This document shows positions 22,501 to 63,350 of a DNA stretch of 64,000 nucleotides, in pieces. Each line of letters opens with the position of its first letter. The stretch's first letter is position 1. The stretch comes from Nereocystis luetkeana. Taxonomy: Eukaryota > Sar > Phaeophyceae > Laminariales > Laminariaceae. A program made the translations under genes and the position numbers. The DNA lies in assembly GCA_031213475.1 (NCBI GenBank), contig JARUPZ010000004.1, positions 1,126,501-1,190,500 on the forward strand, in the 5' to 3' direction. The notes below the pieces were generated by a model. That model was not told where the DNA came from. It ran no database searches and was given only the letters and a program-made list of their open reading frames with translations.

Positions 22501-22597
22501 CTTTTAGCACCGCACTTCCATATGTGGGGACAAAGCACTCAAATTGTAAGTAGTTCATCCATCCCCAAAACGGGACTGGGGTCCTAAAAGGGTTAGG
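22496..22597. mobile_element. MITE-B copy, piggyBac-like
   Basis: CACCGCA/GGGTCC-arm subfamily, ending CCTAAAAGGGTTA. Confidence 0.8.
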
Positions 22598-24089
22598 GTT
22601 AATGCCAAGAGGATTAGTAATATTTTACCTATATTGGGGTCCAGGTACTGCATAGCGATGGCGACTAAAACTACGCCAAGGCGCGTCTTTATGGGCCTTC
22701 CGGGGGGGGCGCGCAGCAGTACGAGTAGTACCGCGATGCATGCGTGTCGTCGATAGATGCCCTTGCATTGTAGCTCTGGCGCACCCCCTTCCTCTGCAGC
22801 CCGGGCTTATCGGTGTTACCGGCGGCGGAACTGTCATTTTTTTTCTTCGCCTTTCCCCCTTTGAAATCCTACAGGGGTTAAGGACGGCACCCACATTTTT
22901 GGGGGCAAACTACTTGAAAAATTCTGGGGTGTTTGTTTCCGTATGCACTAGAAAAAAAAGGTTGCGGTGTCATGGTTGTAACACCGGAATGCGGCGAGGC
23001 AGTGTGGGACGGACCCTACTTCTGTTGTTTTGCGGGTTGTCTCTGGCTATACTTTGGATCACTCACACATTCCACGACGAGTTGAGGAGTGTTTTCGTGG
23101 GCTGATTGTTGTTCATATCATGTGATGATGTTTCTGCACTTTGATCAGCACAGGAGCCACATTCATTTGATGACATTATGTTGAAACAAAAAAAGCACGT
23201 CAGCCGCTGTTTTCCACCGGTATACAGATAGCATCGTAGGAACCAACGGGCCGGGCTTTGGCATAAATCGCAAGAAGTCAAGGCGGCATGAAACACTAAG
23301 TTAGAGAAAAAAAGGTGTTTGATGCCCACAGTTTTCCTATTTGCCACAAGTTAGACTGCGCCCATTATTTGGGTACAAACGACAGTATTTGTGGATATAC
23401 ACTGCTGTAGATTCGAGTGTTTTTTGCAGCGGGAACACGGTTAATATGCTGACTGCACATCAGCGACTGACTTTCTTTATGCTTTCTCCCAAATTAGTTA
23501 AATCACACGATTGATTATGTCTCCCCGCGGCTGCCAAGGACATCGCACTATTGGCCCCTTGGAGCCTTCAACGATAAAAAGTGTCGAAAACATGTGGCGG
23601 TTACAGCGCCGGCCCCACGATGATGCGGGCTGGGCAGCCGAAGTAGGGGGTGGCACCCCAGCCCCAACTATACTATTTGCGCCGCATGATGCAACTACTA
23701 CTGTAGTACGCTGCACCCTTTCGTTTGACGGGTGATATTACTGACCGCACCTAGGCACCTAGTTTGGTCTTGGCATCTACTGTACATCTGGCCCCCAACG
23801 CGGTTGATTCATCTACAATAGCAACAGCAGCAAGCAGCGGCACTGTAAACCTATATTATGCGTAAACCTGGTAGGGGCTGCAGTAATAGTATTGTGTATT
23901 TTGTGACGACTCCATCGGCAAGAGGGACCGAGTCCCGCCCGCCCACCCCCAACCCTCCCTTTCCGTACGATTAGCATACAGAGTACAGTATAGTTATAGC
24001 CCCAGAGATCTTCAACCTGGGTACACTCCAAGGCCGACCTCGTACGAACTACTCGTAGGCTACACCTCCTCCGACCCCCCCCTCCCCTC

Positions 24090-29200: not shown

Positions 29201-32200
29201 TTTCAGTAAGTACTTGAAAAAAAAATAAAATGGTAGTGCTTTTTCAAGAACGAGGGACACGAAAGCTTATCAACCCAACCCAACCCAACCCAACCCATTC
29301 TCCCTCCCCCGTGGATTATTCCGAATCACCCGACCGCCACCGCAGACAGCACAGCAACGGCGGCAGCAGCAGCTGCAGCAGCGGCTGCAGCCGCAGCCGC
29401 GGCAGCGGCCTCCAGCAGCGACGACGCATCCCCCAGCGATGACAGCAGGGGCCAGCAACAACGAAAATCTAGCTCGAACGTGGGACGAAAGGGTGGGAGC
29501 GGCGGCGGCGGCGGCGGCGGCGGTAGCGTTGGGGGTTTCGGTGGCGGCGGAGGAGGCGGTAGCGGAAAAAGTGGCGGTAACGGCGGAGGTGGTGGAAAGG
29601 GAGGTCGAAAAAGACGCAAAGGGGAGGCGGCGCACTCTGCGAACGGAGGGCGCCAACGAGGCGGTGGAGGCGCGAGCGCGAGCGCGCAGTACGGCGACGA
29701 GGGAAGAGAGATTGGGCAAGGGCGGGAGGAGATAGCGAAGAGAAAGGGGCAAGAGGGAGGGGATGTGAGCGGTAGGCGCGGGGGGCAGAGGGAGAATGCC
29801 GGGAATGGGCGGCGCCAGCGTAGGAGAACGGCAGGCACCGGCTGGCGCGGGAAGTTTTTGGAAGAGGATGATGAGGACGAGGAAGAGGAGGAGGAGGAGG
29901 AAGAGGAGGAGAGGGGTCCGAGCAGGCAACGGCAGAGACAAAGGCAGAGGCAGAGGCAGGGGCAGCGGCAGCGGCAGGGGCGACAGCGAGCGGGTTACGA
30001 AGAGGAGACGCCGGAAGACGTCTGGGTACAGTGTGACACGTGCAAGAAGTGGCGCAGGCTGCCCGACTTTGTGGATCCGGATGAGCTGCCGGCGAAGTGG
30101 CACTGCGAGATGAACAAGTACGACGAGGACAGGGCGTCCTGCAGGTGCGTGCTTTGTATCATACAAGTTGGTCGCTGCCAGAAAAGTTGGTTTCATACCG
30201 TACCATACCTTACCATACCATGACATACCATACAATACCATACCATACCATACCATACCATACCATACCATACCATGACATACCATACCATACCATTTTC
30301 GGAAGAATTGGCCGTCGGTATACACGTGTGCACGTCGCGGAAGAGATAGCAGACTCCACGAGCACGAGGCACTACCGTAGCTGTCAGGCTAGCAGCTAGC
30401 ACTAGTTGTTGTTGTTGTTGTTGTCGTTTTGATAGTTGTTTTTCGTTTCCTTGCGGCTGGCGAGTTTCGTCTTTGTCTTGCGGGGAGCGTTTTTTTTCTC
30501 GTTTTCTGGCTTGTCGTCGCGAAGAATTTTCTCTTGAGGAGCGAGCGATTTCTGGGTTAAGATGGGCGGAGCCGATGCTCGTGGTGGAGATCGACCAGCT
30601 GTGTATGCTTGGTATCCGGGTGTTTGCGAAGGATTAAGTTCGGTTGAGTGGCTTATGGTCTGTTCCCTGTATAAAAAGCAATCCCAACCAGCGAAAAAAT
30701 GATTCCGGGGAGGAAAAGTGACCGTAATGGCGTTTTTTAACCTTGAGGGTTCTTGTGTTGGGTAACTCTGTTGGGTGGTTGGCAAACGGAGCAACTCCTG
30801 AATTCACGTCAGTTGCTCCTTTATTTCGGTTTCATGTATTCGTGTAGCCTAACCCTCTGCCGGAATGGATTATCGTAAACACCGTTTTGGCAGTCGACCA
30901 CATGCTCTGGCAAGGGGGCACCCACTTTTCCCCTTACTTAGCCGCGCGTCCCGTTGGTCGTTGTGCGCAAAGAGGGGGGAGGAGCTGTAAAAAAAAAAGT
31001 CACTGACAAAAACGGACGTCAAGGAAATAAATAGGAGCAACCCGATGAGGATTCCCATGGCTTACACTATTATTAGGTATACAAGGTATAACATTGTAAA
31101 GACATACGCACGGGAACCCAACGATATTGGGTAGGGTCCTGAGTGCCCTCACGGAGCCCCTTCAGTCAGAACTGGTTTGGAAAAAACATGTCACTGGGAA
31201 ATGCTCCTACCCCTATGATCTCGCCACGCGCCCTTTCGATAGGAAAACCAATGTCACGTGGCTACCATCAAGATATGCTCTCAATTATTCATACCCAGAA
31301 TGTCAACCAACACGCTTTCTTGTCTCTCACGACGAAACCACGGATTGTGATTGGTTCGTCTTCCTGGTCCGCCGTGTTCCCTCTCCTTCTCGTCGTCAAT
31401 AGACGATCTCTGAAATAGTTTCTGGTTTCGTCACGCCGCTTCCAAAGCTGAGTATCAAAGCTCAACCGGCCGAACTCAGCAGCTGACGTGAGCACAACAT
31501 GTTTTTGCAAAAAGTTCCTGTTTTGTGTTTTCTTTTCCCCGTTGTTGTTCGCGGTTTTCTCGTCTGCCCCTAGCCCCTACCCCCCTCCCCTCCTTACCCC
31601 CACCCCACCCCCCGACGAGTAATACGGTATTATGCGCAGAACTGGGATTGTACCCACTTGAGACAAATAAAAACTTGAGAAAATTGAAATGGCAATATAA
31701 AGTAAGGAACATGCCAAAAAGGAGCTGGCATAAGGTGGGATAGCGTAGTGGAGAAAGTGTAAGTATGGCCGGATATAGGAAGAAACCAAAAAGGTGTGAT
31801 GTCTCTAGAGGAGTTTGGAAGGTACAAGACAGAGAAGTAGAAGAAATGATAGAAATAAGGAAAAGGCTAGCGCTAAGAAATAAGGTCAATTAAGAGAAAC
31901 ACGCAGAGATATGCGGGGGGTTAAGCGGAGGAATAGGAATTAAAACGTATTTGCACGACCCAATAGACTTCGCGAAAATGCTGAAACTGCGATTTCGTGT
32001 AGGGGACCTGGACCTGCCACAAAGAAGAGGTATTCCAGTAGCTCAGATGAGAAAAAGTAGATGCACAGATGTGCCCGTGTGGCATAGCAATAGAGAGTAG
32101 AATCACATAGTAGGAGAATGTGTAATGTGCAAGGAGGAACGGGATGTATTAGAAGATATGAGGGAAATAGACGAATGTGACATGGAGAAGTTTGGTACAC

Positions 32201-35200
32201 TAGATAGCAGCGATAAAAGGATCGCTATCCTAGGAGATACATGGTGGCCACATGCACAGGAAGGGGATATGACTCGCAAAACGTTTCTATGTAATATACT
32301 GAAGTGTTGAAACAACGTATTTGAGCGCCCAACTGTTGGAGGTGGATCTGTAAGGCGTAGGAACGGTGCCCCGTCACGAAAGGGATGCGTGGTCAATGGC
32401 CAGATGACTAGGGCAGGCAACAAATGAGTACGCCCCCACCCCACCCCACCCCCCGGACCCCCACCCCCGCCTCCTCATCCCCCCACCCACCACCCCTCCC
32501 TTGCCCCTACCCTGTCCTACCCCCCGCCCCCCCCCCGCCAAAGAGCAAAGCAAGAGTCGGCTACTAATACAACTAGGGCGGAAGAAGTCAGGAGTCTCCG
32601 CGAGCGCGCGCATCAGCGCCAGCAGCAGCAGCAACGCGCGGGAGGAGGAGGAAGAGGGCGTGGCGACGGCGTCGGCAATGACAGCGATGATTTCCATCAG
32701 GCGGTGTCTGATGAGGAATCCAGGGAGAAAGACTCTAATCTTCGGCGCTTCCTGAGAGGCTGGGCGCGACGCCTCAGGTATACGCCTTGCCTCCCGATCC
32801 GTTGCTGCGCGCATCACATGTGAATACCTTGTGAAATACTACTATGTCCCGAAATTTAAGCACTGATTGGTTTAACAAGTGGTGTGAAACCGGTGCTTAT
32901 ATAATGGGACAGAGTGGTACCAGGTATCACACTGTTTGCAACAGTGCCTTATGAAATATATCACAAATATGACACTGACTGTCTGTTCATAAGAGTACCG
33001 TATGTGCGTCACTCTGTTAATGCCAGTACCGTACGAAATATCACACTATTACGGGGGTCCATATTAAATAGGGCTTGCGGTACACACAAAAACCTCTATG
33101 TTTTCCTATTTTTACTAACAATATTTGGTCCTATTTACTATGGTCCCCCGTAATGTTAATAACAGTACCGTATGAAGTATCGCACTATTAATAACAGTAC
33201 AGGACAGCACTTCTTTTTCACGACTGCAATACGTATCCCACACTAATTTCAAGTACGTCCCCAAAGATGTTTTTTCGATCATCACGCGGTCAAGACCCAA
33301 GAAAACCATCATTTTGTACTTAGGGCCAATGTATACGTACGATTCGGCCTTCCTACCGGTAGAGGTTACCACTATGCCCCTCTATACAAGGACCGTTCGA
33401 ATACAATATTAATATACAAACGGTCCCTTAAGTTCGGGATAGAGTTGTCCCCATAGTTCGGGATAGAGTGGTCCTTATAGTTCGGGACAGAGTGGTCCTT
33501 GTAGTTCGGGACAGAGTGGTCCTTATAGTTCGGGACAGAGTTGTCCCCATAGTTCGGGACAGAGTGGTCCTTATGGTTCGGGGCAGAGTGGTCCTTATAG
33601 TTCGGGACAGAGTGGTCGTTATAGTTCGGGACAGAGTGGTCCTTACAGTTCGGGACAGTAGTCCTTATGGTTCGGGGCAGAGTGGTCCTTATGGTTCGGG
33701 TCCTTATGGTTCGGGACAGAGTGGTCCTTGTATTTCGGTCCTTGTATTTCGGGACAGAGGGGTCCTTATAAATCGGGACAGAGTGGTCCATATCGTTCAG
33801 AAAAGAGTGACCCTTATAGTTCGGGATGGAATGGTCCTTGTATTTCGGAACAGAGTGGTCCTTACAGCTCGGGACAACCACTCTGTCCCTCAATATAAGG
33901 TCCGCTCGGATACAATGTTAATGTACAAGAAGTCTTTGTATTTTCGGACAGAGCGGTCCTTCTAGTTCGGGACAGAGTGGTCTTTATCATTCATAACAGA
34001 CTGGTCCTTATACTTCGGGACAGAGAGTGATCGTTATAGTTCGGGACAGAGTGGTCCTTATAGTTCGGGACAGAGAGAGTGATCGTTATAGTTCGGGACA
34101 GAGTGGTCCTTATAGTTCGGGACAGAGTAGTACCACTTTGTCCCTCAATATAAGGTACGCTCGGATACAACATAAATATACAAACGGCATTTATATTGCG
34201 GGACAGAGCGGTCCTTGTATTTAGCCCAGCTTCGACAAAACGATGGACAGCCCACACTAATAATTATATTAATGCGTGTAGCTGCTGGCTTCACCCTCGT
34301 TCTTACTGCAGAAATTTCCCCGACGGTCGGGATGAAGTCAAGAGGCCTGTTTCGATGTTTGGACGCATGCTGCATACGGTAGTGGTGCACCCGCTATTAT
34401 CAGAGCCCCCTCACTCGACCTTAACCCTTTTAGAACTGCAGTCCCGTTTTGGGGACAGACCACTCAAAATCCAAGTAGTTTGACCCCCAAACGGGACTGC
34501 AGTCCTACGAGGGTTAAGGAGCTTTGCGTATGTCCCACCCCAAAAACAATGATCCCAAGAAAATATGGTACACCTAATTCGGTGGGCAGTACCATAGCCT
34601 CGGTCTGTACGAAGTGAAAAATATTGTATGAACGCACGATGCTATTGTGTGTTTGGTATGTTAGTTCCTTTTTTGTTGTTGAGAAGGTGCATCAGGCCTA
34701 GTGACGGTTTCGCCAAAAACAGTTATTATGCCTCTATCGCAGCGAACGATTTTCAACCATTCTGTCCAGAAGCAGGGCCAAGGTCTGGTCAGCCTGACAT
34801 CAGAGGGGGTGATATCAAATCAAATCGTAACTCTTGCTTGCGGTTAATCCTTGTTTCCGTTGCATCCCCTCCCGATCCGTACGGGCCACGTGTTTCCGAT
34901 TTTGGCATTTGCTGATTTATCGTTTCCTGTTTTCGGTAGCCGACTTTCGGTTTCAGATTTTCCGTTTCTGATTTGCGGTTTCTGATCCGTTTTCCAGTTC
35001 CGTTTGTTGCTTCTGGCTATGCTTTTCCCATGAGAGTAACCGGTTTGCGCATTCCGAATTGCGATGTCCGATTTTCGGAAGTCCGATTTTCCTGTTCTCA
35101 CCAGCAACAACCCGACCGATCGGTGTGTTTGTTTTCCGACGGCGCCCGATCGAAAACGATTCGGTTCGATTGCGGTCTGTTCTGTCCTGTTCTGCTCTGT

Positions 35201-36535
35201 TCGGTCAAGGTGCACGGAGAAAGCGAAGACTCGTTTCGCTCCGTCCATGTCGACTCGCGGAAAGCGCAAAGCGAACGGGCAGGTTCAGTGGGTCCGCTGC
35301 CAGAACTGCGGGAAGTGGCGGGCGCTTCTGAGGTGCATGGATGCCTCCATCTTCCTGGGGCACGGACAGGTGCGCTGCGTGCTGTGTGCGGCTGCGAGCT
35401 ACGGCAGGTGTACGAGCAGGGTACCCGATTTAAGAGCGTCCATACTATCAACATTAAGAAGATAAAACTGACTCAGGCTAGATTTCTTGTTTTGAGAATT
35501 GGCGCGTTCTACACTAAATTTTGTATAACGACTCCCGAATGTCTTGTTTTCCTGTATATATGAGCCTGTCTGTGTCATTGACCGTTTTCCCAGTAGGGGT
35601 GCTGTCATGTACCCGATTTGAGAGCGTCCCTAATATCACTATTAATATGAGTAACTTGAAGCAGGTAAGAACGGGAAGTTCGGCTTCACGGAAACTTAAA
35701 GAACCAGGTTTCTTCGCCCGACCGTTCACGCTTTACGAGCGTTTGCTCTCTTAGAACAGAAACATATCCCGAATTGAGAGACGCAATCCCTCTTATCCCG
35801 GGATAGCATCAAATCGCTCTTAAAGGGGGATACAAGCGCTTCGCAGATAAGAGCGGTCACTCTGACCTGTTCTAAGGGGCTCTTAAAGCGGGTGTCCCAC
35901 TGCTGTTGTACCTTTTGATTAAAAAATGTATGACTGACGACCCCCCCCTTCCCCTCCGCTCTTCCCCTTCTCCGTTCCTTCTTGCCGCGTCCCGCCCCGC
36001 CTGTGCGTCCGCCGCGGTGGTTGATCCCGTCGTCCGCGTGTGCGTCTCATTTTGCGACAAATGATGGCGTCTTTGGCGAACCGACGACAACGGCGACATC
36101 GACAATATCAACCACCACGACAAACCACAATAACAACAATGCCAACAGCAATTCTACTGCCTCATGAACACCTGGCACGAGTCGCTGGCGAGCTGCTCCG
36201 CCCCGCAGGAGAACCAGTACAACATCGCCACTTTTTTCCCGCCATCGCCGCCTCCGCCGAAGCAGAAGCCGCCAGCGGGGTCGGGAGCCGCGGCCGCGAC
36301 GGCTCAAGAGGACGGCGGATGCAAGGAGGCCGATGGTAGGGCGGGGGCGGATACGAACGGAACCCCCCCTGCAGCGTACGAAGAGGAGAAGGACGATGAT
36401 ATGGACGATGACGGATACCTGTACCCTTTTGGTGACCACGACGGAGCCGCGGACGTCGACCGTGGGGAGGAATCGGCTGGGCCGAACTACGGGCAAGAGT
36501 TGGGTCAGCGGTACCAGCAGCGTGGGTATTACTGA
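26278..36535 (+). CDS. Nuclear protein with two CW-type zinc fingers, 5 exons
   Basis: Seen: exons 26278-26527, 29346-30144, 32544-32777, 35210-35369 and 36149-36535, all phase-compatible, about 609 aa. Residues 1-83 are basic ([27 protein letters not shown]). Exon 2 encodes poly-Ala, a Gly-rich stretch, an acidic run and an RQ-rich run, then CW1 at about 309-349 with W310, C313, C316, W319, W335, C337 and C349. Exon 3 is charged and Gln-rich. CW2 (about 454-497) is split between exons 4 and 5: W455, C458, C461 and W464 in exon 4, then C485 and C497 in exon 5. Its third Trp is Phe483 (QFYC). The tail is Pro- and acid-rich and ends in YY. Known: CW domains bind the histone H3 tail, mostly methylated Lys4, through the aromatic cage. 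Inferred: a chromatin reader. Uncertain: exons 1-2 and 3-4 are linked by phase only, and a separate gene starting at ATG 35247 is possible. Confidence 0.8.
26683..26736 (+). repeat. (CTG)n array in CW intron 1
   Basis: Imperfect CTG/TTG trinucleotide run, giving poly-Leu or poly-Cys frames that are not genes. Confidence 0.9.
27179..27304 (+). CDS. Possible cassette exon of the CW gene
   Basis: Inside CW intron 1 lies an open stretch of 126 nt bounded by a pyrimidine-containing AG acceptor (after ATGGAAG) and a GT at 27305. It starts and ends in phase 1, exactly what is needed to sit between exons 1 and 2 without changing frame. It would encode [20 protein letters not shown] and about 20 further residues. 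The donor (AAA/GTACCA) is weak. It may be an alternative exon or a chance open frame; no domain is recognised. Confidence 0.22.
27797..27897. mobile_element. MITE-M copy (TGTCCGGAAATTTAAG ends)
   Basis: Small element with TGTCCGGAAATTTAAG at one end and AAATTTTCGGACA at the other. Related copies are at 28046 and 32845. Confidence 0.65.
28046..28128. mobile_element. MITE-M copy
   Basis: ACCACTGTCCGGAATTTTAA and TTTTTTCCGGACAGAGCGGT ends, about 80 bp. Confidence 0.65.
28552..28632. repeat. Three direct AGCCCAGTAACTACGT units plus inverted unit
   Basis: Three near-identical 16-bp units are followed by ATCTACGTTACTGGGGCT in inverse orientation, so the segment can fold as a hairpin. Confidence 0.7.
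29022..29345 (+). repeat. Duplicated 3' end of CW intron 1
   Basis: Two or three imperfect units, each with AAxGAGGxAC, pyrimidine-rich DNA and CCGC(C/T)(A/G)CCGCAG before ACA. The last one is the acceptor used for exon 2. The second unit includes an exon-like start (ACAACG..GCGGCGGCAGC) and ends at a GTAAGT. The last unit also has a (CCCAA)n run at 29273-29298. Confidence 0.5.
30190..30298 (+). repeat. (CATAC)n microsatellite
   Basis: About 20 CATAC units with CATGA variants, starting 45 bp after the CW1 exon donor. Confidence 0.92.
31640..32440 (+). mobile_element. LINE 3' portion, longest copy, with C-rich tail
   Basis: About 800 bp in gene orientation. It encodes, across broken frames, the [15 protein letters not shown]-type motif, then VCPCG-like and WWPHAQEGD segments matching 14985-15424. 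It ends AACAAATGAGTACGCCCCC. The tail grades into the C-rich tract before CW exon 3. It is 5'-truncated and no reverse transcriptase core is present. Confidence 0.72.
32845..32924. mobile_element. MITE-M copy
   Basis: ATGTCCCGAAATTTAAGCAC at the left and ATGGGACAGAGTGGTACC at the right. Its right end equals the unit of the satellite at 33420. Confidence 0.65.
33047..33154. mobile_element. MITE-A copy
   Basis: TATTACGGGGGTCC to GGTCCCCCGTAAT, about 108 bp, in CW intron 3. Confidence 0.9.
33420..34230 (+). repeat. 24-bp satellite derived from MITE-M ends
   Basis: Twenty or more units of about 24 bp (TATAGTTCGGGACAGAGTGG plus TCCT). They are broken at about 33890 and 34135 by a module with TCTGTCCCTCAATATAAGG and CTCGGATACAA. 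The array is open in frames on both strands, which reflects the unit length and not coding. Confidence 0.88.
34431..34517. mobile_element. MITE-B copy, piggyBac-like
   Basis: TTAACCCTTTTAGAACTGCA to CTACGAGGGTTAA, a clean palindrome of 87 bp. Confidence 0.88.
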
Positions 36536-44562: not shown

Positions 44563-44712
44563 TTTTCTACCCGTCACCCCCTTCCCCTGCGCCTGAAGTA
44601 TTATGAAAGGGTTTTAATAGGTGGCTCGGGCCTCTCTCCTTCTCTGACCGAACTCGGACTGGGTGAGTATGCTCGCTAGCTCCTAGTTTAGATGGTTGGG
44701 GTCTCTCTCTCT

Positions 44713-45586
44713 CTATCCGAACTTGGTCTTGATGTTTACGCTCGTCTTGTTTCGAGGCACGATAGCCTTGCAAATACGGATCTTCCTCCCATCTACGATG
44801 GACTCGCACGTTCCACAGTCCCCCTGCCGTCACGGTAGCACACACGACGGACGAAAAAAAAAAAAAACCCGAGTCAGCACGGAGGAAGGAAGGGAGGGAG
44901 GGAGGGAGCGTGGTGCGAGCCGACAGGACGGAGTTTCGGTATATACAGAAGTAACCCCACGGTAGGGGTTGCACTTTTTGGGCAAAAGGTTTCTGACCGA
45001 TTGAGTTCCCTAAGTGAGGGATCAGCAGTTAGGATGAAAATTGTACTCGTATATTCGGTTCAGGACTAGCGCATACAAGTGCCGGTCGGGTGGCGCGAAC
45101 AAATTTCTTCCAAGTATTGTATCGGGTGAGATATTGAGCTCCTACTGTGAGGGGCTCAGGAACTTCTGGTGCACCCCTACCGTGGGATGGCTCACAGGTA
45201 TCACTCAAGACACTCCTATTTTGGGTCAGGCTCGGTTTCTTACGCGAGGCAAGCGAAGCAAGCAAGCCCGAATAAAAAAGGAGGAAGGGACGGCAAACAA
45301 GCAAGCGAACCAGCGAGCAAGCAAGCTAGCAAGCGAGCGAACACGCAGACGAGCAAGAAAACAAGCAATAGAGCAAGCAAGCAAGCAAACAAGCGAGCAA
45401 GCATGTACGTCAGCAAGAAAGCTAGCAAGAAAGCGAGCAAACAAGCAAGACAAGCAAGAAAGTAAGCAAGCAAGCAAGAAGCAAGCTCGAGCAAAAACGG
45501 AGAAAAGCGCGGCGGCGTGAGTAGACAGCATGTACGTCAGCAAGAAAGCTAGCAAGAAAGCGAGCAAACAAGCAAGACAAGCAAGA

Positions 45587-45618
<32 letters not shown>

Positions 45619-48600
45619 TCGAGCAAAAACGGAGAAAAGCGCGGCGGCGTGAGTAGACAGGACGGAGTTACGATACGGATCAAACACAGCAGAGATGGTC
45701 GCTGTATAGAGTGTCGGTATATATGCGCCAGCCAACAAAAACCGGCACTCTAGCGGCAATCGGGACTATACACTCCGCACACTGCCACACCGGCCAATCC
45801 CATCTCTGCCAAGCGATTCCACAGGCACTGACTACGGCGGGCAGTCGGCACTATAGAGGGGCCACTACTGTATGGTGAAGCCCTTCAAAACTACATGCTT
45901 TAGTCAGGGGACGAACCACTTGGAATCAGAGTTGACTAATTTTGACAGTGGCGAAATGGTAGTAACCGTACAGCAGTGCGCGACACTACGTCAGAAAATC
46001 GCCGCTTAAGAAACTCACCGCTTGAGACGATAACAACATTTCGGGAAAGGCTGCGAGCTCTCATTCTTATGTGACGCAGGGTGTATATCCGACACTCCTG
46101 CCAGTTACGTAAAAACAAAATACGGAGTGGTCCAACCAACGGATCTGCCCTCTGCTGTGTGTTCGTTTGGTTGATCGCTTGCCTGCTTCGGTTGTTACCT
46201 TATTTATTTTTTTCGCGCGTGGTAACTCAATGCAAGGCTTCATCCGTTGGGTGGATCAGATCACTGTACAAGCGCAGATCACATAGAGACCACTTTCACG
46301 GATCTGCATCATCTGCATACGATCCAACGGGGCTGATCCACAAGATCTGAACGATCTATGCCAGCGTGGCAATTTTATCACGCGTGTGCCCGGGTTCGTA
46401 AGCACACTTTACTCTGATCTGGTACGATCTGTGTGATTTGTGCACGTTTCCACGCGGCGACCTGCAGTACACTCATGGTCAATAAGTATGTCCCAACCCA
46501 CTGGTCTGTACGGTCTACAGCTGTAGGCCAGGAAGATCGTGACCCGTCCGAAGAGCAATGCCCTATAGGGCTGACGCCTTATTTCCTGATATCCACGCCC
46601 CCGCGAGGTAAGCTCAATGTCCCAACCGAGTCACGACTGCGGTGATTTTGTTCGCTCCACCCCACCAATGTTTCCATGCGGTATATTATATATATATATA
46701 TATATAATATATATATATATATACCTGGAACATGTAACATGTATATATACACGAAGAAAAGCAAAACAAAAAAAACTGTGAAATCGAAAATATAATCCAA
46801 ACTAATCTTCGCGGGCTCATATACAATTAGTGCGTGGTAATAAGTCCTGAAAACAACACCCCGGAGTGTGCTATTAATAGTAAAACTATCATACTATTAA
46901 TATATATATAACCCGGACCTGGTATGATCGTTGCTCACTCGAGGAGCCCAACCGGTCAACAGAAAAGTTTTGACAAAAAACGTGTAACCCGGACCGCCGT
47001 GGGACGAATCCCGACTATCAACAGAGCAACAGCTGGTCACGCACCCCCCACTGAAAAAAAAACAGATTCGGGAGTCTCCGTGTACGCTAGATATCCCTTC
47101 AGTCAGTCCGTGACGGCAAAGCACTCACTCGCGTGCGTACCGCACAATACTCCACCCTCTTGAGGACTTCAAACACGAAAATCGTCGATACGTACGTTGA
47201 CGGCTATAAATAAAACGAGTACAGCAACAGCCATCGCGTGATTGGGGGGGGGGGGGGGGGGGGACGAGTTACAATGGTTGAAAGCCAAGGAGACGCACGC
47301 CACGGGCGCAACATTATCGTATAAGCGTTCACCGCTTCGAGCTCGCCGATCACACTGCTCGTACTCGTAGACGGTCGGAAACAAAAAAATATATACCATT
47401 ACTGTCGGTCCATGTCTAGGGATCCTGAAGGGACGGAATTTTTCAGGCCGATTGACGCGTTCTACGATAGAGGCAGCACACGTGAGACGTTCTACGATAG
47501 AGGTTCACCCTATTTTTTCTGAGGCTCCTCACATGAGGAGCTCCATACCCCACCCGAAAATTTTCATGGCCCACGCATGCAAATTCGTCATTTTTCGGAA
47601 CAAGATTAGCATTCCGACGATTTGGGGGTAAGAAACCCCGTCATTCAGAAAACACTTCAGCGGAAATGTGCTACCTCAATCATCGAACGCGTCATTTCCT
47701 TAAAGCTGTTTTCTGAATGGCGGGGTTCCTTAACCCCTTTAGCACCGCACTCCTATATGTGGGGACAAAACACTATAAATTTTAAGTAGTTTGTCCCCAA
47801 AACGGGACTGGGGTCCTAAGAGGGTTAACCCGAAATCGTCGAAATGCCAACAAAAACATCGAGAAATAACGTGTTTGTATGCTTGGGCGATGGAATTATT
47901 CGTCAGGGTGCAATTTGGTTTTCGCTGAGGTCAGTTTTCGGGTGAGGTATGGATCTCCTTGAGTGAGGCGCCTCAGAAACATTAGGGTGGACCTCTATCG
48001 TGAAACGCCTCGATTTTTTCGACAAACCGGAACAACAGTGATAACGCAAGAGCGATCGATGCACGCGTCGTCTAAACGTATGCGGAAACGCCTCTCTCAC
48101 ACGTGTTCTTGCTAGAGCCGCCAGTCTCGTTGTGCGCGCCCTCCTCTACCCCTATAGGCCAAACTGCCGTCCCCTTTTGGGGACACTCAAATTCCACTCA
48201 AATTCCAAGTATTACGGGGGACCATAGTTAATGGAACCTATGGTATATACAAAAAACCTATGTATTTGACCATTTTTACTAACAATATTGGGTCCTGTTA
48301 ACTGTGGTCCCCCGTAATAGTTCTTTTGGTCCCCTAGACGATACTACAGTTCAGAAAGGGTGGAGGTATGTGTCTGGAATACCTGGCACCTGGTATACCA
48401 TAAGGATGCGAGCCATGCCCCCCCCCCCCCCCCCTCCCCCCCCCTCCCCCCCCCCGCCCGCTAGACCAATTTTCAAAGCCCGATTGCTCCTCAACCGAGA
48501 GGCTGCCAAAAACCGACCGACTCGTCGACGGAAAGCTCTCCACGAGATTCTTCCGAAGCTACCCTCCTCTGCATTGACACCCTTCCGCTTGCCGAGCAAT

Positions 48601-51600
48601 CGAGCTTTCAAAATCGGCCTGTAGGGGGGGTGCGATAACCCGCACCCTTACGGTAATCGGTTCGACAATTCATCCCAGCGCGGGCGTGTTACCTCTTGCG
48701 TGTTATGCACGACAAAATACCAGAATAGCCCATGCATCACGCGACCCATACTAACGAATTATTGTTTTTGGGACAGCCTCACATTCTCGTGTGGGCCAAC
48801 TTCTTATTCGGTGATGTGCCGCTCTGGAATACGATGTGGTGGGACCATATGTGGACTCATGTGACATCATTGTGTGTTGCATTGTGGTGTGACCCGGCAT
48901 GATGTGGTTGTGACTTGATGTGGACTTCTGTGATACCTGGTATCAGTAACATGCTACCTGGTATGTGGTTGTGATGTGATATGATGTGATGTGACGGGCT
49001 GCGATATTATCTGGTGCGATGTGATATCATGTGTTGTGGTGTGGTGTGATGTTATGAGATAAGTCCTGATACGATCTGATCCGATACGAAACATGCAATT
49101 TTGTGGCGTCATGTGATACGATACACCTGGTATATGAGACTCCAAGCAACGTGTTACGTGGTAATGTGTACTGGTATAACGCACGCTCGCGGCAACCGGC
49201 CTAACATTGGGGCGGCTACCACCCTATCACCCTACCACACGTGTGATAAGTGATAAGTGATAAGTGATACCTGGTAAGTGATGATGGATAAGTGATGAGT
49301 GATGAGTGATAATATCATACACACCCTCGGACGAACTTCAAAAGCTGGTTCACAGCGGGGGGAGTGTAAACGCCTCCATACATACGTCTATGGAAATATC
49401 TAGACGAGACGTTTCACGAGATCCTTCCTTCCTAAGCCACCATTTTCGTTGTATCTCGGAGAAAATTGTCTCAGCCGGTGGGTTATCTTGCCTGTCGTAC
49501 GGTTGTCGTGTTGTTGTGTAGACGCACGTACTTCAGACTTAGAAACGATAAAACGACATCGCACGTACTTCAGACTTAGAAGCGATGAACGACATCGACG
49601 TGGAAGGTATCAAGCACTATTTTTATCACCCCATCCGCAAGAAGCATAATAATAAAATATGATCAGCTTGCGTGTGTGTGCTGTGCGATGTGCGAGATGC
49701 TCACCGCAGCTTTCAACAGCCGCACTTCATTTGTCTTTGTAGGGCGGGGGGATAAGGCCACCGGAGAGGCGCCGCGAGCAACACAGAGAGAATCAGCACA
49801 TTGAGTCCCCAACAACCTCCTATCGAACCGTCCGGCAATGGTGTAGGAACACAGCGGCATGTTGACCGCGCTGCATTTTATACGAGCCCGACCGCAGGAA
49901 CATATTCCAGGAAACGTCCTATCGAACAACTCGTAAAACCTACGTACTGGTCGGTTCACATTCTCGCAGAACGTACGAAATCGATCTCAGCAGGCTGATC
50001 TCAGCTCTCGCGCCAACGGTATACCAGGTGTCGAACGCTCCATAGTTCGATGCGTCGGCACTTCCTTTCAACACGAGGCCCAACAAGCACCACGCGATGC
50101 GAATCGAAGAGGGGAAAAAGTGCTGACCTTTTCTCGAGACAAGGTACGCACCTGGCAGTGGGGAGGGGGGGGAAGAGCCGACGACGCGACCCCGGATTTT
50201 GAGGTACGACTTAACAGGAGCGAGAGGGAAAAAGAAGGGCGGGGATACACAAAATGGGACGGAATGAAATAAATACAAACACGCCAATCAGTAAATAAAT
50301 AGTCGTTCGTTTACCTTCTCGCAGCCGTACTCGACCTTCGCTTTAGCCGCCAGCACGACATCACGAAGGCGCTGCCCCTGCACCGCCTGGATGGTCTTCC
50401 CGTTCACGGTCACCTGTGGCGGCGCCGGAAGGAAACAAAATAAATTGGAGGTTTTAAGAAATTGGGGATTGATAAACTGGGAGCTGAACAGCTGAGAGTT
50501 ATCCCTTTTACAATTATGCACTGCTGTGCAAAAACCTAAATCTGACTCTAACTCCAAGTGTTTCGTCCTCACAACAGAAGTGCAGTCCTCGAGGCCCGAA
50601 GGGGTTTCGCAACTAAGTGGGATTAATCGCCTCGACAATCTGCCATACCTTGGTGTATTAGATAATCTAACAGATCATCTCACAGATCATGATCTGCTAC
50701 AGATCTTTCGAGGAAGATCTGTTCCTGATATTGTAAGATTTAGCTCATGCTGTCGAGTGGGACAATATCACCCGCACGACCTAGCGAGCGTAACCTGGGC
50801 TTGGATCTTTCTGCACTAATAATTTGCAGATCCTCCAAAACCCCTAACAACGGCAAGGAACTACATTATCTACCGTAGATCATGATCTGTGGGATATGTG
50901 TAATCTTTCCGTTAACGGTAACCTGGGGAGACGCCGAACGGAACACAACTACTCAAGAAAACGGAAATTAAGAAACTGAGACTTCACCGGCTGGAAATAT
51001 TTCCGTTCACATTCACCAGGGGGGGGTTCCGGAAGGAATAAGGCACTTGAAAAATTGGTTGTTAAGAAACTGGAACTTGATAAATTGGGACTATATCGGC
51101 TTGACAGTATATTTCCGTTAGCGTTGGCGCCGAAAGAAATACAGATAGTACTTAATGACTTGGGAGTTCAAACAATAGGAGCTGCACCGCCTTCATAGTC
51201 CCCCCGTTGACAGTGACCAAAAGGCGATGTCGAAACAATTTTTCGAGCTGGACAGTTGGAATATAAGAAAACTAGGACTCAATTAAAGTGGAACTGCACC
51301 GTTTGGACGGTCTTCCCGTTGTAATGGTCTTCTGCAGGTGGCGCCAAAAGGAATGCAACATTTTACTCAAGAAATTGGAGTCCAAGAAATTTTGGACTGC
51401 ATCGTCTTCAGAGTGTTTCCGATAGTAGACGGAAAAACCGCTGTGACGCCGAAAGGAATACCCTGGTACGGCACATGACAAAACGGGAAGTTGAGACATT
51501 GGGACTGCGCCGCTTGGATAGTCTTTCCGTTCACGGCAACCTGCGGTGAATCGACAAACGGATTATAAGCAGAAGTTGTGAAGTTGGAGTTCCAGATATT

Positions 51601-54600
51601 AGATGATGACAATCTGGGACGTATTCGAGGAATGCCAATTTGATAAAGTGGGACTGAACCGCCTCGATAGCCCTTCCGTTGACGGTAACCTATGCCGGCG
51701 CCGAACGTAACACATCAGGATACTTGGGAAATTGGGGTATAACAAGTTGGGACTGCATCGCCTGGATAGTCTCATTAACGTTGTTCTGCGGGTGGCACCA
51801 AAAGGAAAACAGCAGGAGTACTGAATAACTTGGGAATGCATCGCTTGTAAACGGTAACCCGCGGTGATGCCGAAAGGGAAACAAAAACGTACTTGAAAAA
51901 ATGGAGTTCGAAAAAACGGGACTGCACTACCTCGATGGTCTTTTCCCGTTAAACGTGACCCGCGGTGACGCTGAAAGGAGTATACCAAGTACCTGGTACG
52001 GTACTAAATCAGAAATCGGGAGGTCAGAATTTTTGGCCAGAATTGTACCCGAAACATATGCTAGGGGGTGCTTCTTGTTGTGCAGTACGGGCCCACAGAT
52101 GTGACACAACCTACCAAGAACGTAAGACGCGCTTTTTCGGTGAACGCTCAGAAAGTCGGAATGAGAAATCGAGCAAAACAGCGAGAGCTACAGTACTGTG
52201 AATCCTGCCGGGTATATAATACGGTTAGCCTAGGGCCAAGGTTGGTGAAATATGGTATCACAATAAGGCAGCAAGGCCTCTTCACACTACACGTAATATT
52301 ACGTGCTGCCTTGTTTGGCGGGCCTGTGCTTGTTGGATTCTCTGTTCTCTTCCTGACCCTGGGGATCAATTCCCGGGGAGATGATACAGTCGCAACTTAC
52401 CCCTTCTCGCCTAAGAAAACAACAAAACGATGGAGCTGTGAGTCGGCACAACGTAAGTCACCAACCAGTTATTAGTCGGACAAGTTATTAATACCTGGTA
52501 GTCGTTTTCCGGAGGTGCCGACTATGCGATTTATTCGGCCCGACTATTCGGTTCATTCGGTATCCAAGGGTACACCCACACCTGTAGGAAGGAATACTGA
52601 ACGCGGGATACAATTCTTGAATCTTGGGCTGTCCCCATCGGCCGTAGAGGGCAAATGTGTCTCGCTTTGCTCGCCCGAGTTAAGCCGGCAGACCGGCCAG
52701 CCATCAGCTGGCTTCGTCAGCCGACTTGCCGGCTAAAGTCAATCAGTAGGCTAACGGCGCCTACCGACTAATTTTAGTCGTGAAACCCTGCCGGCTCTCA
52801 GCTTTAGAAATGGACCAACCTGGGCGATACTTCTTGTGTGTATACGGTATAGTACTGTAGTACCATGTCTCCTCTACTTGTGCAGTTATACCACTGCACA
52901 GATGGTTATACCCTATGAGGGTCTATCAAAGCAAAACATTGCTGAGGCCCAAAATACTTTAGATGGTGTTCTGTCGCCACCTGATTAATTTATACAAAGC
53001 ACATCAAGGGTATGGTGTAAGCTTGATGTTGATGGATAAGGAGGAGATATACTCCGCTGTAGTTACTATTGATAATAGAGCTGCTAAACTCCACATAGTT
53101 AATCCCGCAGAAGGAGGGTGAATGTTCAAGTTACGTACGAGTAGTATTCTCAAGGTTTGATTTGTGCATAGCGTGGGTAGGCGCAATTCGACGCGAAGGA
53201 AAGAAAGTGCTGAACTCTTCTCGTGACAATAATGCCTTCCAAGGGGAGAGGGGGGACGAGAGTCTGTCGTGATGCGTGCCACGATACACGTGGCGTCTTT
53301 AGGCCATTTCTTTTTCTGACTGACGGGGGGGTTCCCTAACTGAGAAACTCACCCAATGTCACTGGGAATTGACTTTTTGTTTGCAAGTACATTTTGAACA
53401 ACACCTACGATACGCCAAGCTTAAGCGTCCGCTTGTTTTCGTCAAAAACAGTTTTTGGGAGAGATATAGAGTTCCCTCAAGTTAGGAGCGTCAGAAAAAG
53501 AAGGTGATGTCATACCTGGTACGTACTTCTACCGTACCACACATACTTTGTGTCACCCCTGATCTGAGTTACGACTATTTTATAATTAAAAAAGGCACGT
53601 CAGCTGAGAGTTCGACCGATCGGTCGATACTCAACTTTGCAAGGTTAGGTGCGTGATAACCGTTCGCGGGTTTCCCATTATCTTCCCCGCGATTGACCTA
53701 CTGGCCGGTGACTCCCCTGGATGCTACCAAGGTCGACGAGACGATAACACGCTAGAGGCTAGATTTCCAGTTGATTTCGGCCAGTACCATCTCGTGCACT
53801 GAAACAGCAGTTCCCACGTGAGGGCCACGGTACACAAGACACTCGAAAGATTGTTTATAGCAGTTCATACGTGAGGGCCGGGGCACACACGTCATTGGAA
53901 ACGACTATTTACAGGAAGGAGAGAAATTATGGACGAATTTATACTATTAATGAATACTAATAAAAGGGGTCGTAGAAAACTAAAAAAACAACGTACCAGG
54001 TACGAATACGCAATATTTGTAGAAATGGCCAAAGTTGGATCCATCGTGTACATCCATGCCAAGGTGTTTTTCATGCGGACCGCCAAGGTTCTGGAGTACA
54101 TAATGCAAATATCAAATACCTGGTACCAAATACTCGCACAACAAGCAGCATCAAGATACAAGCAAGTATAATGCGAGGATATAAAGCGTTTACGAGCCAA
54201 GATTCAAGATTATCCAACCTATAGGTACGAGGTCTTCATGTGCTTCTTCGGTCGACATGGAGCACGTAACTTATGTATGGACTTACGGTCATTAAGTCAC
54301 GATGGCAGTGGCTTGAACCCTCGACACTCGACACTCAGCACATAACAAAGTGAGATGACGCTCACAATGACGACGTGTGTTTTCGTTTGTTCTCGAGTTT
54401 TACGAGCTGCGACGAGTACGTACGTACTTTGGAGTTTACCAGTATACTGGTACTGGTACCAGGTACGAAGGTACTACGCGTCGTTTCGACGTATATATAC
54501 TGCCCACGTACTGATTACCACTGCTGTGGGTACAGCCACACTAATGTACCTGGCTGTGCCCGGAAATGTCTGGACCGGCTTGGTCTTCATATTAATATCC

Positions 54601-55528
54601 AAACGGTCCTTACATAAGAAAACGAGAACAATAAGAACGTCAGGCCGAGGTTTTCAGGGAAACGAGAAACCTCAATGCGGTTATATTGAAGTTATTAAAT
54701 AGTGTACTGCTATTACTAAGAACACAAGAAATCCAGGCTGGGTCAGCATTCCTGCTTTATGTGGCGTTGTCTTGCACTGCTGTATCATACCAGGTACGTA
54801 TATACTTGGCACATCTACTGTGTTGTTGTACCAGGTGGTGTAGGCGAGTAGGCGTGGACAAGGTGACGCTAGCACGTCCCTTCATTCAGCAAGAAGGGAG
54901 TGCTGCTGTGCTCTCTGTGTGACGGCCGCACCTGTGCAAATCAGATTACATCAGGTACAATGGCAACCGCACCGTGAATTCATTGCACCTCCGCAAATAA
55001 ATCAACGTCGCCTCCTCTCTTCTCTACAGCCGCTGGTCTCGCCATGTTCACGTTGCAAGGACTGTTGTTGCTACTGCTGCAGCTGCTGCCGTACTGACAC
55101 AGGCAGTACTCGTATGACGTCGCCGAAGCTGCTGACTGTACAACTTTACTTCTATTTTTAATACTGCAGCAGTTGTTGTATCATGTTTATCGAGTAGTCT
55201 TCAGCTCGTCAGTCAGAGTTCATGTTGAATAAGAAAACAAGACAGGCGTGCCTTACACACTACGCACCATGCACTTCTTCGCCTCGTTCTTGAGGCCAGG
55301 ATTCTTGTTCGGGGCCATCTCCTCATTAGCGAACGCTTTCCCCAAGGCATCTCCCCATCCCATTCTCAAGGCGCCCGCCGTTGCCCTGTTCATGGGAGCT
55401 CTCACAGCTGATGGCGTGATTGCTCCATCGTACGAAGCCTTCGCCAAGGACGCGGGGCAAGGCAAGAACGCGCGTACGCAAGAGACGCAAAGTACTAGAG
55501 CAACTAGTATACGTGTGAAGTTCATCAT
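44713..55528 (-). CDS. Plastid-targeted 2Fe-2S ferredoxin-domain protein, 3 exons
   Basis: Seen: exon 1 is 55528-55268, exon 2 50413-50315, exon 3 44823-44713; both introns are phase 0 and the product is 156 aa. Residues 1-20 (MMNFTRILVALVLCVSCVRA) are a signal peptide. Phe21 follows directly, then a Ser/Ala/Arg-rich transit-like segment and GWGDALGKAFANEEM. Exon 2 starts VTVNGKTIQAVQGQRLRDVV and ends EYGCEK. Exon 3 starts GDCGTCESIVDGRKIRICKA. The cluster ligands are C118, C123 and C126 (CX4CX2C) and a fourth Cys only 11 residues later (C138). Known: Phe at +1 after a signal peptide is the hallmark of import into complex red plastids, and CX4CX2C is the plant-type 2Fe-2S motif. Canonical photosynthetic ferredoxins have a spacing of about 29 before the last Cys, so this is a specialised ferredoxin-like protein. 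The partner is unknown. Introns are 4,854 and 5,491 bp. The start at MM is preferred over an in-frame upstream Met because it puts the signal peptide first. Confidence 0.88.
45250..45661 (+). repeat. (AAGC)n with a 130-bp tandem duplication
   Basis: AAGC tetranucleotide array. Its right part is present twice in direct order (about 45400-45528 and 45529-45661), each ending GGAGAAAAGCGCGGCGGCG. Confidence 0.85.
46684..46727. repeat. (TA)n microsatellite
   Basis: About 20 TA units with one phase break. Confidence 0.9.
47215..47350 (+). mobile_element. Dispersed family K copy, diverged
   Basis: GCAACAGCCATCGCGTGATT, a run of about 20 G, then GAGTTACAATGGTTG. The G-run replaces the GGGGATG tract of the other copies. 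Confidence 0.45.
47459..48010. mobile_element. Element E with ~90-bp TIRs and a nested MITE-B
   Basis: Left arm: CGTTCTACGATAGAGG, then CTCCTCACATGAGGAG. Right arm is its inverse (CCTCTATCGTGAAACG). A partial copy is at 1381-1628. MITE-B is inserted at 47730-47827. No ORF. Confidence 0.7.
47730..47827. mobile_element. MITE-B copy nested in element E
   Basis: TTAACCCC to GGGTTAA, CACCGCA/GGGTCC-arm subfamily. Element E must be older than this insertion. Confidence 0.85.
48210..48319. mobile_element. MITE-A copy, inserted into a MITE-B relic
   Basis: TATTACGGGGGACC to GGTCCCCCGTAATA. The left flank ends CACTCAAATTCCAAG, the centre of MITE-B. Confidence 0.8.
48800..49315 (+). repeat. TGTGATG-rich and GTGATAA degenerate tandem tract
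   Basis: Degenerate GATGTGRT repeats (48830-49090), then GTGATAA/GTGATGA units (49240-49315), strongly purine/T-biased on this strand. Confidence 0.75.
50085..50255 (+). mobile_element. Dispersed family L copy
   Basis: GCGATGCGAATCGAAGAGGG through ACCCCGGATTTTGAGGTACG. It lies 60 bp downstream of ferredoxin exon 2. Confidence 0.6.
50367..51985 (-). repeat. Tandem array of decayed ferredoxin exon-2 acceptor copies
   Basis: The acceptor and first codons of ferredoxin exon 2 (CAG then VTVNGKTIQA) recur about eleven more times in the same orientation upstream in the intron. Cores lie near 50908, 50982, 51091, 51180, 51292, 51394, 51502, 51649, 51748, 51835 and 51919, about 75-150 bp apart for neighbours. 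Each core pairs an exon-like part (GACTGCACCGCCTGGAT on the plus strand) with an intron-like part (GGCGCCGAAAGGAA). The copy at 51502-51560 still reads VAVNGKTIQAAQSQ after a CAG. Confidence 0.82.
50645..50903. mobile_element. Element C copy, within the acceptor array
   Basis: GATCATCTCACAGATCATGA, GATCTGTTCCTGATATTG and CTACCGTAGATCATGATCTG modules. It separates the functional exon 2 from the decayed array. Confidence 0.6.
52434..52804. mobile_element. Element F, full copy
   Basis: AGCTGTGAGTCGGCAC and GCCGGCTCTCAGCT ends, 371 bp, no ORF, matching 17081-17384. Confidence 0.7.
53165..53280 (+). mobile_element. Dispersed family L copy, partial
   Basis: ATTCGACGCGAAGGAAAGAA, CTGAACTCTTCTCGTGACAA and a GGGGAGAGGGGGGACGAGAG tract. 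Confidence 0.5.
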
Positions 55529-56138
55529 GCCGGATGGTGCTCGTGGAGGTGAAAGCCACGACGATGCGACGATGCAATATCTGATTCGTTTACGGTCTAC
55601 AGCTGCTGTAGCGGGGAGGTCAACCACGACCCCCGGTGTGACACCGCCTTTTCCGATCGGAGATTACCCCGACTATCGGGAAAATAATTTAGAGGGTTTC
55701 CAATATCCCCCAGCGGCAGTACGTAGCCGCAGCGCGAAGTCCTCAAGGCCTATAGGAATTGGGACCCGCCGAGCGCAATGAGAGGGCAGTGGTCGTCACA
55801 GTGACAGAAGGAACTAACCACACACCAGAAAGGCACGGGATACATATAATCAATCACGGGGAGGGCGCTCTGAGGGCAGCAGCCCGGTCAGGGTCACCTG
55901 TGCCCCTGTGGGCGAAGGCTTCTTCCACGCAAATATTTTTTGATTCTCCGTCATATTTTTTTTTCGGAAAAGCAGATAAAATCAGCAGTGTTGTGGGGTT
56001 GTGGGACGGACGGAAAGCGACAACATCGGAACGAGGGTACAGCAGTTAGCTTGCTGGTATCCAGCTAGGGGTCTACGATAACCGCTTCCGAATCCACCCC
56101 CCTAGACTTGCTAGACGTGATCGCATCTCAACGCCGCG
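55529..56138. promoter_or_regulatory. Presumed divergent promoter region
   Basis: This 610-bp interval separates the minus-strand start of the ferredoxin gene from the plus-strand start at 56139. It has none of the repeat families seen elsewhere in the window, which is unusual here and suits a shared regulatory region. No TATA box or named factor site can be asserted. Confidence 0.35.
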
Positions 56139-62100: not shown

Positions 62101-63350
62101 TCCGATAAAAAACAACTATGTAGGAAGCCACAGCAGACCAGTGCGGGCAAACTACCGCACACGCGTGATGTTGCTTCCTGCTCTGCTGGCGGGTGGCAGG
62201 CGTGTATAGCGTTGTAGCCAGCTGGTTGTTAATCGCACCCTGCACCTCTCATGTGATGTTTGTCGTCTGTGGTGTCTGGGTTACGCACATGATACTTCGC
62301 CCAAGAATAAAGTTGAAAACACAACTTGAAAAACAAAAAATATGATCTCTGCTACAGTAGGATCAAACTCGCGCCTTCAAGTCCAAAATCGGGCATCGTG
62401 ACCGTTTCACCATATTTCGAAAGATCCGTAGTGTTATTTTTAGTGGCGCGCGACACACCGGACGCACATGCGCAGCACAGCAGAAAAGAAAGAAGCGATG
62501 ACGGATGACAGATCGCAGCGTCCGATCAAGCAATCAGTCACAGCAGTACACCCGCACGCGCGTGGTGTTTCTGGCCGCTGCTTGTGCTGTTGGGCGGAGT
62601 TGTAGCGTTGTGTGTATTCTCTGCATTGCTGTATTTGCTGTCTACAGCAGGTGCAGTAGATGTCTGGTTTGTGCTCGCGGCAAACCAACACGAAACATCG
62701 GAAATAGAAGGACCGTTGGCCGGTGGCGTATAAAATTCAGTCCAAACGGTGCTTACATTTCCGTCCACAGCAGTTAGCGTTGGTCTGTGACACGTAGCGG
62801 CGGCAAAGACAGGTATAGATGGCGGATTAAGGACCGCAGGCTCCGATAAACACAACTACAGCAGTAGCCACAGCAACTCAGCGCAGATGGGTGTGTCACA
62901 CACGCACGGTGTTGCCTGCTGGTGCTCGTGGGCGGCAGCGTTGTAACTTTGTGCCTTCTTACTGTTGTCTGTTGTCTACCTGATACCTGATACATGTCTG
63001 GGCTGTGTGCCCATGGGGGCCGAGGGGGAAAAACAGGCAACATTCTACCTGTACGTACGTACAAAATAAGGCCTCTCGTACTTGATACATGTCTGGGCTG
63101 TGTGCCCATGGGGGCCGAGGGGGGAAAACAGGCAACATTCTACCTGTACGTACGTACAAAATAAGGCCTCTCGTACTGAATGAAACCAGGGAAATCGTCT
63201 TGTCCACTCCCGCCGAAAAAAAGTCATTGAGGACTGACTTGCCACGCGCTCCAGAGGGCATGGATCGCCCCCGGACCTCGACCAATGTGTTCGGCCGGGC
63301 TTCCCGTGTCGACTACTTTGCGTTTTGCCAAAAAGTGCTCGTACGCAAAG
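56139..63350 (+). CDS. Putative N-myristoylated protein, partial model, function unknown
   Basis: Seen: ATG at 56139 opens with MGATGSKTPRASTKEGRQAG and meets a strong GTGAGT donor after 56206 (phase 2). A phase-compatible exon at 63190-63350 encodes a charged stretch (EIVLSTPAEKKSLRTDLPR ... ASRVDYFAFCQKVLVRK) with acceptor CAG and donor GTAGTT. A third candidate exon, 57715-57872, has phase 2 at both ends and fits between them; its donor lies inside a TACCAGGTA motif. Known: Gly2 followed by small residues and Ser6-Lys7 fits an N-myristoylation signal. Inferred: a membrane-anchored protein transcribed away from the ferredoxin gene. Nothing in the visible residues identifies a family. The gene would continue beyond 63350, perhaps past the window. 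The first exon is moderately convincing; linking it to the later exons rests on phase alone. Confidence 0.35.
57130..57320 (+). mobile_element. Dispersed family L copy
   Basis: ATTCGATGCGAGTCGACGAG through TGACCCCGGATCTGAATTAC, ending near an A-run (57320-57339). Confidence 0.6.
59690..60440 (+). mobile_element. Element H, full copy
   Basis: About 750 bp matching both halves of the interrupted copy at 5560-5860 and 6985-7400. CCATTGGCATA-like tracts occur at the two ends in inverse relation (ATGCCAATGG at 59688, CCCATTGGCATACC at 60440), so it may have terminal inverted repeats. Only short frames are open. Confidence 0.6.
61076..61203. mobile_element. MITE-A copy, right arm decayed
   Basis: TATTACGGGGGACCATAG left arm. 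In the right arm TACCTGGTAG motifs have replaced part of the sequence. Confidence 0.65.
62988..63177 (+). repeat. 95-bp direct tandem duplication
   Basis: TGATACATGTCTGGGCTGTG through GGCCTCTCGTACT is present twice with almost no differences. It sits just before the proposed exon at 63190. Confidence 0.92.

Follow-up and report, generated by a model that had tools for sequence, protein, structure and literature searches.

A probable "mirage": decayed tandem repeats of an intron-exon junction in a predicted ferredoxin gene of Nereocystis luetkeana

The question raised by a 64,000-nucleotide stretch of the Nereocystis luetkeana genome (GenBank assembly GCA_031213475.1, contig JARUPZ010000004.1, positions 1,126,501 to 1,190,500 of the forward strand, hereafter the window) is why the first intron of a predicted ferredoxin gene should contain, upstream of exon 2, a whole series of sequences resembling the beginning of that same exon together with its 3' splice site. 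An initial annotation, made from the letters of the sequence, had left two interpretations side by side, that of a ladder of decoy acceptors modulating the splicing of a plastid ferredoxin, and that of a footprint of repeated local duplication. According to the analysis reported here, the array is very probably an old and decayed "mirage", i.e., a tandem duplication of an intron-exon boundary, and consists of dead repeats rather than forming a splicing switch.

The array and the gene that harbors it

The repeated segment joins the end of intron 1 to the 36 bases with which exon 2 opens (12 codons, VTVNGKTIQAVQ). It recurs upstream of the exon in the same orientation, and both the repeat families and the alignment located these direct repeats at the place indicated by the initial annotation. 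Besides the native boundary, 11 decayed copies are distributed over positions 50887-52041, in agreement with the earlier count of about eleven, and a short remnant of one further copy, recognized by eye at about 50487-50500, adjoins exon 2 and was excluded from all counts. The outer limit of the array is found at about 52022-52041 instead of 51985, where it had previously been placed. Depending on the copy, the ten start-to-start distances among the 11 copies vary irregularly from 83 to 149 bases (mean 103.5), the unit boundaries having been set by eye and the copy at 51505 having been trimmed from 149 to 116 bases for the unit alignment. Within the intron half of the unit, two short sub-repeats (CCCAATTTCTTAA and TCCAATTTCTCAA) can be distinguished by eye from the alignment, and the native unit alone continues into the remainder of exon 2. 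The in-frame motif VxVNGKTIQA, which had been noticed after a CAG in some copies, occurs literally as VAVNGKTIQA in the copy whose acceptor lies at 51541, and other copies read VTVNGK, VTVNGRAIEAVQ or VTVNGGTMKAVQ.

About 375 bases of unrelated DNA (50511-50886) intervene between the remnant and the first full copy, and the true acceptor (50414) is consequently separated by some 500 bases from the nearest copy acceptor (50923). This unrelated DNA contains imperfect inverted repeats (50677-50704 with 50868-50895, which are 82% complementary, and 50692-50707 with 50714-50729), as if a small hairpin-rich element had been inserted after the formation of the array.

The host gene, as predicted from open frames, is located on the minus strand and would comprise three exons, which connect in phase 0 throughout and encode a product of 156 amino acids, with a donor ATG|GTGCGT at the end of exon 1 and a second intron of 5491 bases (Table 1). 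Residues 88-132, encoded by exons 2 and 3, match the Pfam family Fer2 (E 6.1e-07), which upholds the ferredoxin label given previously and supports a 2Fe-2S ferredoxin-like protein as the predicted product. Position 1 of the Fer2 profile coincides with residue 88, the first residue of exon 2. The search of the PDB yielded exclusively weak and distant 2Fe-2S matches (best E 0.00034), while the protein query gave 3 and 256 pattern matches in viral and genome contig collections, none of them confirmed, a single-protein query of this kind reaching close relatives only. Nothing was detected by Rfam at the gathering score over 44600-55700. The N-terminal extension resembles the bipartite plastid presequence of algae with secondary plastids, and it is from this resemblance that the designation "plastid" is derived.

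When only the native 109-nt unit served as query, a control into which the copies themselves had not entered, nine of the 11 copies (scores 37-76) scored higher than all 500 of their own dinucleotide shuffles. The two weak copies, at 51091-51181 and 51397-51504, obtained scores of 21 and 22, attained by 24 and 26 of the 500 shuffles, and with a 72-nt junction query they were reached by 2 and 14 of 500 shuffles, respectively; both become clear only in a profile of the 12 units. This profile, built from the same 12 units that it recovers, attributes 47-74 bits to each of them, whereas the rest of the window does not exceed 4.2 bits and 20 Markov shuffles do not exceed 8.7 bits. Control windows taken from the other DNA of introns 1 and 2 (n = 165) gave a top score of 25.

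Within the window, the repeat also appears to be local. BLAST performed with positions 50315-50500, which cover exon 2 and adjoining sequence, and with E values up to 1 allowed, retrieved, over the 64 kb, only the query itself and the array (in 7 pieces), and neither BLAST nor the profile disclosed any copy of the unit at unrelated loci elsewhere within the window. Over 106 windows of intron 2, no copies of the exon 3 acceptor occur, the scores having a mean of 15.2 and a maximum of 21. A self-BLAST of the whole window (E up to 1e-4, 324 rows) identified other local repeats, none of which, among the pairs less than 6 kb apart, was noticed at the gene's remaining exon boundaries, and Tandem Repeats Finder at its default score reported no row in the array. 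Two results had been announced as incompatible with the initial annotation, namely a lack of repeats matching the exon boundary and a wide occurrence of the repeat consensus elsewhere in the genome, unrelated to the exon; neither was encountered in the window by BLAST, profile or shuffles. A pre-existing satellite that would have donated the start of exon 2 can practically be discounted. The copies are indeed more numerous than the exon, but the unit is absent from the rest of the window, the 12 copied codons form the beginning of the Fer2 domain, whose profile is matched from position 1 at residue 88 (E 6.1e-07), and exon 2 differs from the copies by synonymous changes only.

Table 1. Coordinates of the predicted ferredoxin gene and of the units of the array in intron 1.
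Feature	Positions	Strand	Characteristics
Exon 1 (predicted)	55268..55528	-	87 aa, presequence-like N terminus; open frame in phase 0 with exons 2 and 3
Intron 1	50414..55267	-	4854 bases
Exon 2 (predicted)	50315..50413	-	33 aa VTVNGKTIQAVQGQRLRDVVLAAKAKVEYGCEK; acceptor CACAG|GTGACC, donor GAGAAG|GTAAAC
Exon 3 (predicted)	44713..44823	-	GDCGTCESIVDGRKIRICKAIVPRNKTSVNIKTKFG then stop
Native (terminal) unit	50378..50486	-	109 nt: 73 bases of intron end and first 36 bases of exon 2
Copy remnant and unrelated DNA with inverted repeats	50487..50886	.	separates exon 2 from the other copies
Copy 1	50887..50979	-	acceptor CCCAG|GTTACC at 50923, intact
Copy 2	50980..51090	-	AG lost
Copy 3	51091..51181	-	acceptor deleted; weak match alone
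Copy 4	51182..51293	-	AG lost
Copy 5	51294..51396	-	CAG|AAG at 51332
Copy 6	51397..51504	-	AG lost; weak match alone
Copy 7	51505..51653	-	149 bases including extra DNA; CAG|GTTGCC at 51541; VAVNGKTIQAAQ
Copy 8	51654..51752	-	TAG|GTTACC at 51690; VTVNGRAIEAVQ
Copy 9	51753..51835	-	CAG|AACAAC at 51786
Copy 10	51836..51921	-	AG to GG
Copy 11 (outermost)	51922..52041	-	AG to GG

Decay of the copies and of their splice signals

The AG dinucleotide is kept in 5/11 copies and the AG|GT junction in 3/11. The neighbouring column pairs (n = 82, AG included) keep the consensus in a mean of 6.0/11 copies, and the splice signals are therefore not conserved above background; the A of AG belongs to the less-kept columns (5/10 alignable copies). 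Mismatches to the copy consensus, which follows the majority among the 11 copies and does not represent a reconstructed ancestor, amount to 86/376 in the exon half of the unit and 133/499 in the intron half. With respect to codon positions 1, 2 and 3, they are distributed as 33/125, 18/125 and 35/126. Synonymous and nonsynonymous changes occur in a ratio of 28:58, and the synonymous share (28/86), set against the 26% that neutrality would give under the spectrum of substitutions in the intron half, reveals no synonymous excess in the copies that would point to a coding constraint (p 0.18). In all 11 decoys, the reading frame encounters a stop after 9-58 codons, far ahead of exon 2, which is located at least about 500 bases away. 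Owing to the retention of AG at background level, the equal decay of positions 1 and 3, and the early stops, the copies look unselected. The start of exon 2, in contrast, looks to be under selection, since it differs from the copy consensus at 4/36 sites, all of them third-position and synonymous (a probability of 0.0047 if neutral), while the intron part of the same native unit differs at 16/47 columns.

Some observations nevertheless weigh against the interpretation of the copies as simple dead repeats. Second codon positions are better kept than first and third ones (column permutation p 0.002, codon position 2 having been picked after the data were seen), and this difference persists when CpG sites are removed (16/115 mismatches versus 29/103 and 28/93 at the two other positions). 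Such a retention is not predicted by plain neutral decay. It could recall formerly coding tandem exons, either mutually exclusive or repeated, that have since died. Tandem exons of this type are highly improbable, however, taking into account that just 36 of the 99 bases of exon 2 were copied and that first codon positions decayed as fast as third ones.

The splice-site content of the region provides further points of the same kind. Acceptor-like YAG triplets preceded by a pyrimidine-rich sequence are about 2.5 times as dense in the array (9 in 1155 bases) as in the remaining part of intron 1 (10 in 3226 bases), plain YAG being rarer in the array (25.1 versus 33.5 per kb). In addition, weaker donor-like words are scattered over the region, e.g., GTAAA at 51366 and 50511, GTGAG at 50683 and 50572, GTGCG at 50777 and AAG|GTATG at 50648. 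These words are not trivial and pseudo-exons are possible, since the gene's own donors consist of GTGCGT and GTAAAC; only one of the six (51366) lies inside the array of full copies.

It is on these features that a functional ladder of decoy acceptors might be built, in which the surviving copies would compete with the true acceptor, divert part of the transcripts to unproductive mRNA, and tune the output of ferredoxin. The five copies with a surviving AG possess 9-12 pyrimidines among the 16 bases upstream, the density of acceptor-like YAG is raised, weak donor-like words are present at 51366 and 50648 as well as at a few further positions, and the early stop following every decoy is reminiscent of a poison exon. 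A role of this type nevertheless appears decidedly improbable. The AG was lost in 6/11 copies and is retained no better than the neighbouring column pairs, the spacing is irregular, neither GTRAGT nor GTAAG occurs in 50414-52100, and RNAalifold predicted zero pairs, i.e., no consensus structure, for the 12 units, while unconstrained intron sequence gives early stops too. From the two interpretations proposed by the initial annotation, the footprint of local duplication is thus well supported, whereas the modulation of splicing finds no echo in the retention of AG, the spacing, the synonymous share or the RNA structure.

Origin and age of the array

As a decayed mirage, the array would have been seeded by a segment of about 100 bp spanning the 3' boundary of intron 1 (some 65-73 intron bases and 36 bases from the start of exon 2), which would have been tandemly duplicated to give a minisatellite, subsequently expanded via slippage or unequal exchange. 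Since the terminal copy alone leads into the remainder of exon 2 and its donor, no other acceptor could yield a correct mRNA; the terminal copy must therefore stay the working acceptor and would have been maintained by purifying selection. The upstream copies, as intron DNA, would have decayed much like neutral sequence, and one of them would also have been interrupted by an insertion. That the copies go unheeded by the spliceosome would most likely be a matter of exon definition, since the last acceptor alone has a true donor nearby, at the other end of the 99-base exon 2, where the coding frame requires one.

The 12 units share identities of 47-76% (mean 59%), which are unrelated to the lag between them (Mantel r 0.11), without any gradient with distance from exon 2 and without any particular similarity between neighbours. 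The unit tree mostly displays long tips and short inner branches. Both the identity pattern and the shape of the tree suggest an old expansion followed by independent decay, without recent homogenisation. The copies at 51294 and 51753 share CAG|AA and 73% identity, which hints at a multi-unit duplication (higher-order repeat), and the tree joins the unit of exon 2 with the copy at 50980 (support 0.83).

As an observation in its own right, two-copy tandem duplications occur elsewhere in the window, at 62984-63177 (95 bp, 97% matches) and 45400-45660 (127 bp, 95% matches), so that local tandem duplication of approximately the unit size still looks recent in this DNA.

Introns originating from tandem arrays, by duplication across AG|GT boundaries, have reportedly been described by Zhuo et al. 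(2007), Rogers (1989) and Gao and Lynch (2009). Those cases deal with the creation of new introns, whereas an already existing boundary was apparently multiplied here within its intron. The birth or growth of intron 1 by tandem duplication according to the model of Rogers would, on the contrary, make the array the source of the 3' part of the intron, in the manner of the amphioxus globin intron E8.1, for which this model has been proposed (PMC3087553). Counting the insertion, one third (0.335) of intron 1 is taken up by the segment between the acceptor and the outermost limit of the array, and exon 2 begins with CAG|GT, which conforms to an AG|GT proto-splice site. An origin of this type is very improbable, however, as none of the 61 windows from the remaining part of intron 1 matches the 72-nt junction (best score 21, mean 14.7) and the donor end of the intron, compared by eye, has just GTG in common with exon 2. 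Intron 1 probably pre-existed and was then lengthened.

Lancelet mirages and other features of the window

In the amphioxus globin gene BflGb6, PMC3087553 describes the repetition of an intron 3' end together with the 5' part of exon 2, in units of 150-160 bp present in 6 and 3 copies of 81-100% identity. Further mirages from amphioxus are mentioned for the globin BflGb9 (PMC3087553) and for Adh3, troponin C and PGBD5 (PMC3902484), the PGBD5 array being qualified as imperfect, and the reported unit size ranges from 10 to 160 bp (PMC3087553). Many but not all of the lancelet copies keep their splice signals, and the mirages do not seem, according to the authors, to disturb splicing (PMC3087553; PMC3902484).

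The array of N. luetkeana resembles these mirages in consisting of tandem direct copies across one intron-exon boundary, with an anatomy identical to that given for BflGb6. One of the copies similarly corresponds to the working boundary of a real exon, here in a Fer2 gene model with phase 0 junctions, part of the copies keep their signals (AG in 5/11, AG|GT in 3/11), and the unit is of minisatellite size (spacing 83-149, mean 103.5). It differs from BflGb6 by its host, an alga instead of a lancelet, by its 11 copies, counted in one haplotype, instead of 6 and 3, and by an identity of 47-76% instead of 81-100%, homogenisation being unseen; a high identity is a reported property of young arrays and was not taken as defining.

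Variable internal tandem repeats at exon-intron boundaries have also been described in human segmental duplicates, where they mostly change coding sequences or form novel introns in recent paralogs (PMC2812944). Both types of repeats are located at an exon-intron boundary, but the array studied here is old and decayed. Among the literature matches listed, which leave subscription journals mostly uncovered, the same architecture was seen in lancelets only, and this represents weak evidence of its absence elsewhere.

That mirages have arisen repeatedly among eukaryotes, in a photosynthetic lineage as well, and constitute a general means of lengthening introns, the present array being a fossil whose decoy acceptors were either ignored or selectively purged, is a conceivable generalization which we regard as rather unlikely. 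An independent non-animal case would suggest that intron-exon boundaries occasionally seed minisatellites in general, and a true 3' splice site standing behind up to five AG-bearing near-copies offers a natural test of the choice of the last acceptor. The weight of this example is modest, because it concerns a single decayed locus.

Some other features of the window deserve mention. Open frames for CW-type zinc fingers occur at 29237-30220 (Pfam zf-CW, E 2.2e-14) and 35040-35462 (E 7.1e-05, below the Pfam cut-off). A tandem array with a 24-bp unit (CCTTATAGTTCGGGACAGAGTGGT), present in about 29 copies, extends over 33426-34128, and long open frames on both strands span part of this array. Families of inverted or direct repeats of about 100-170 bp, some 64-82% identical, are found at 8651-11655 and at 17888-18193 together with 20278-20379 and 22492-22617, and look like small hairpin-type mobile elements.

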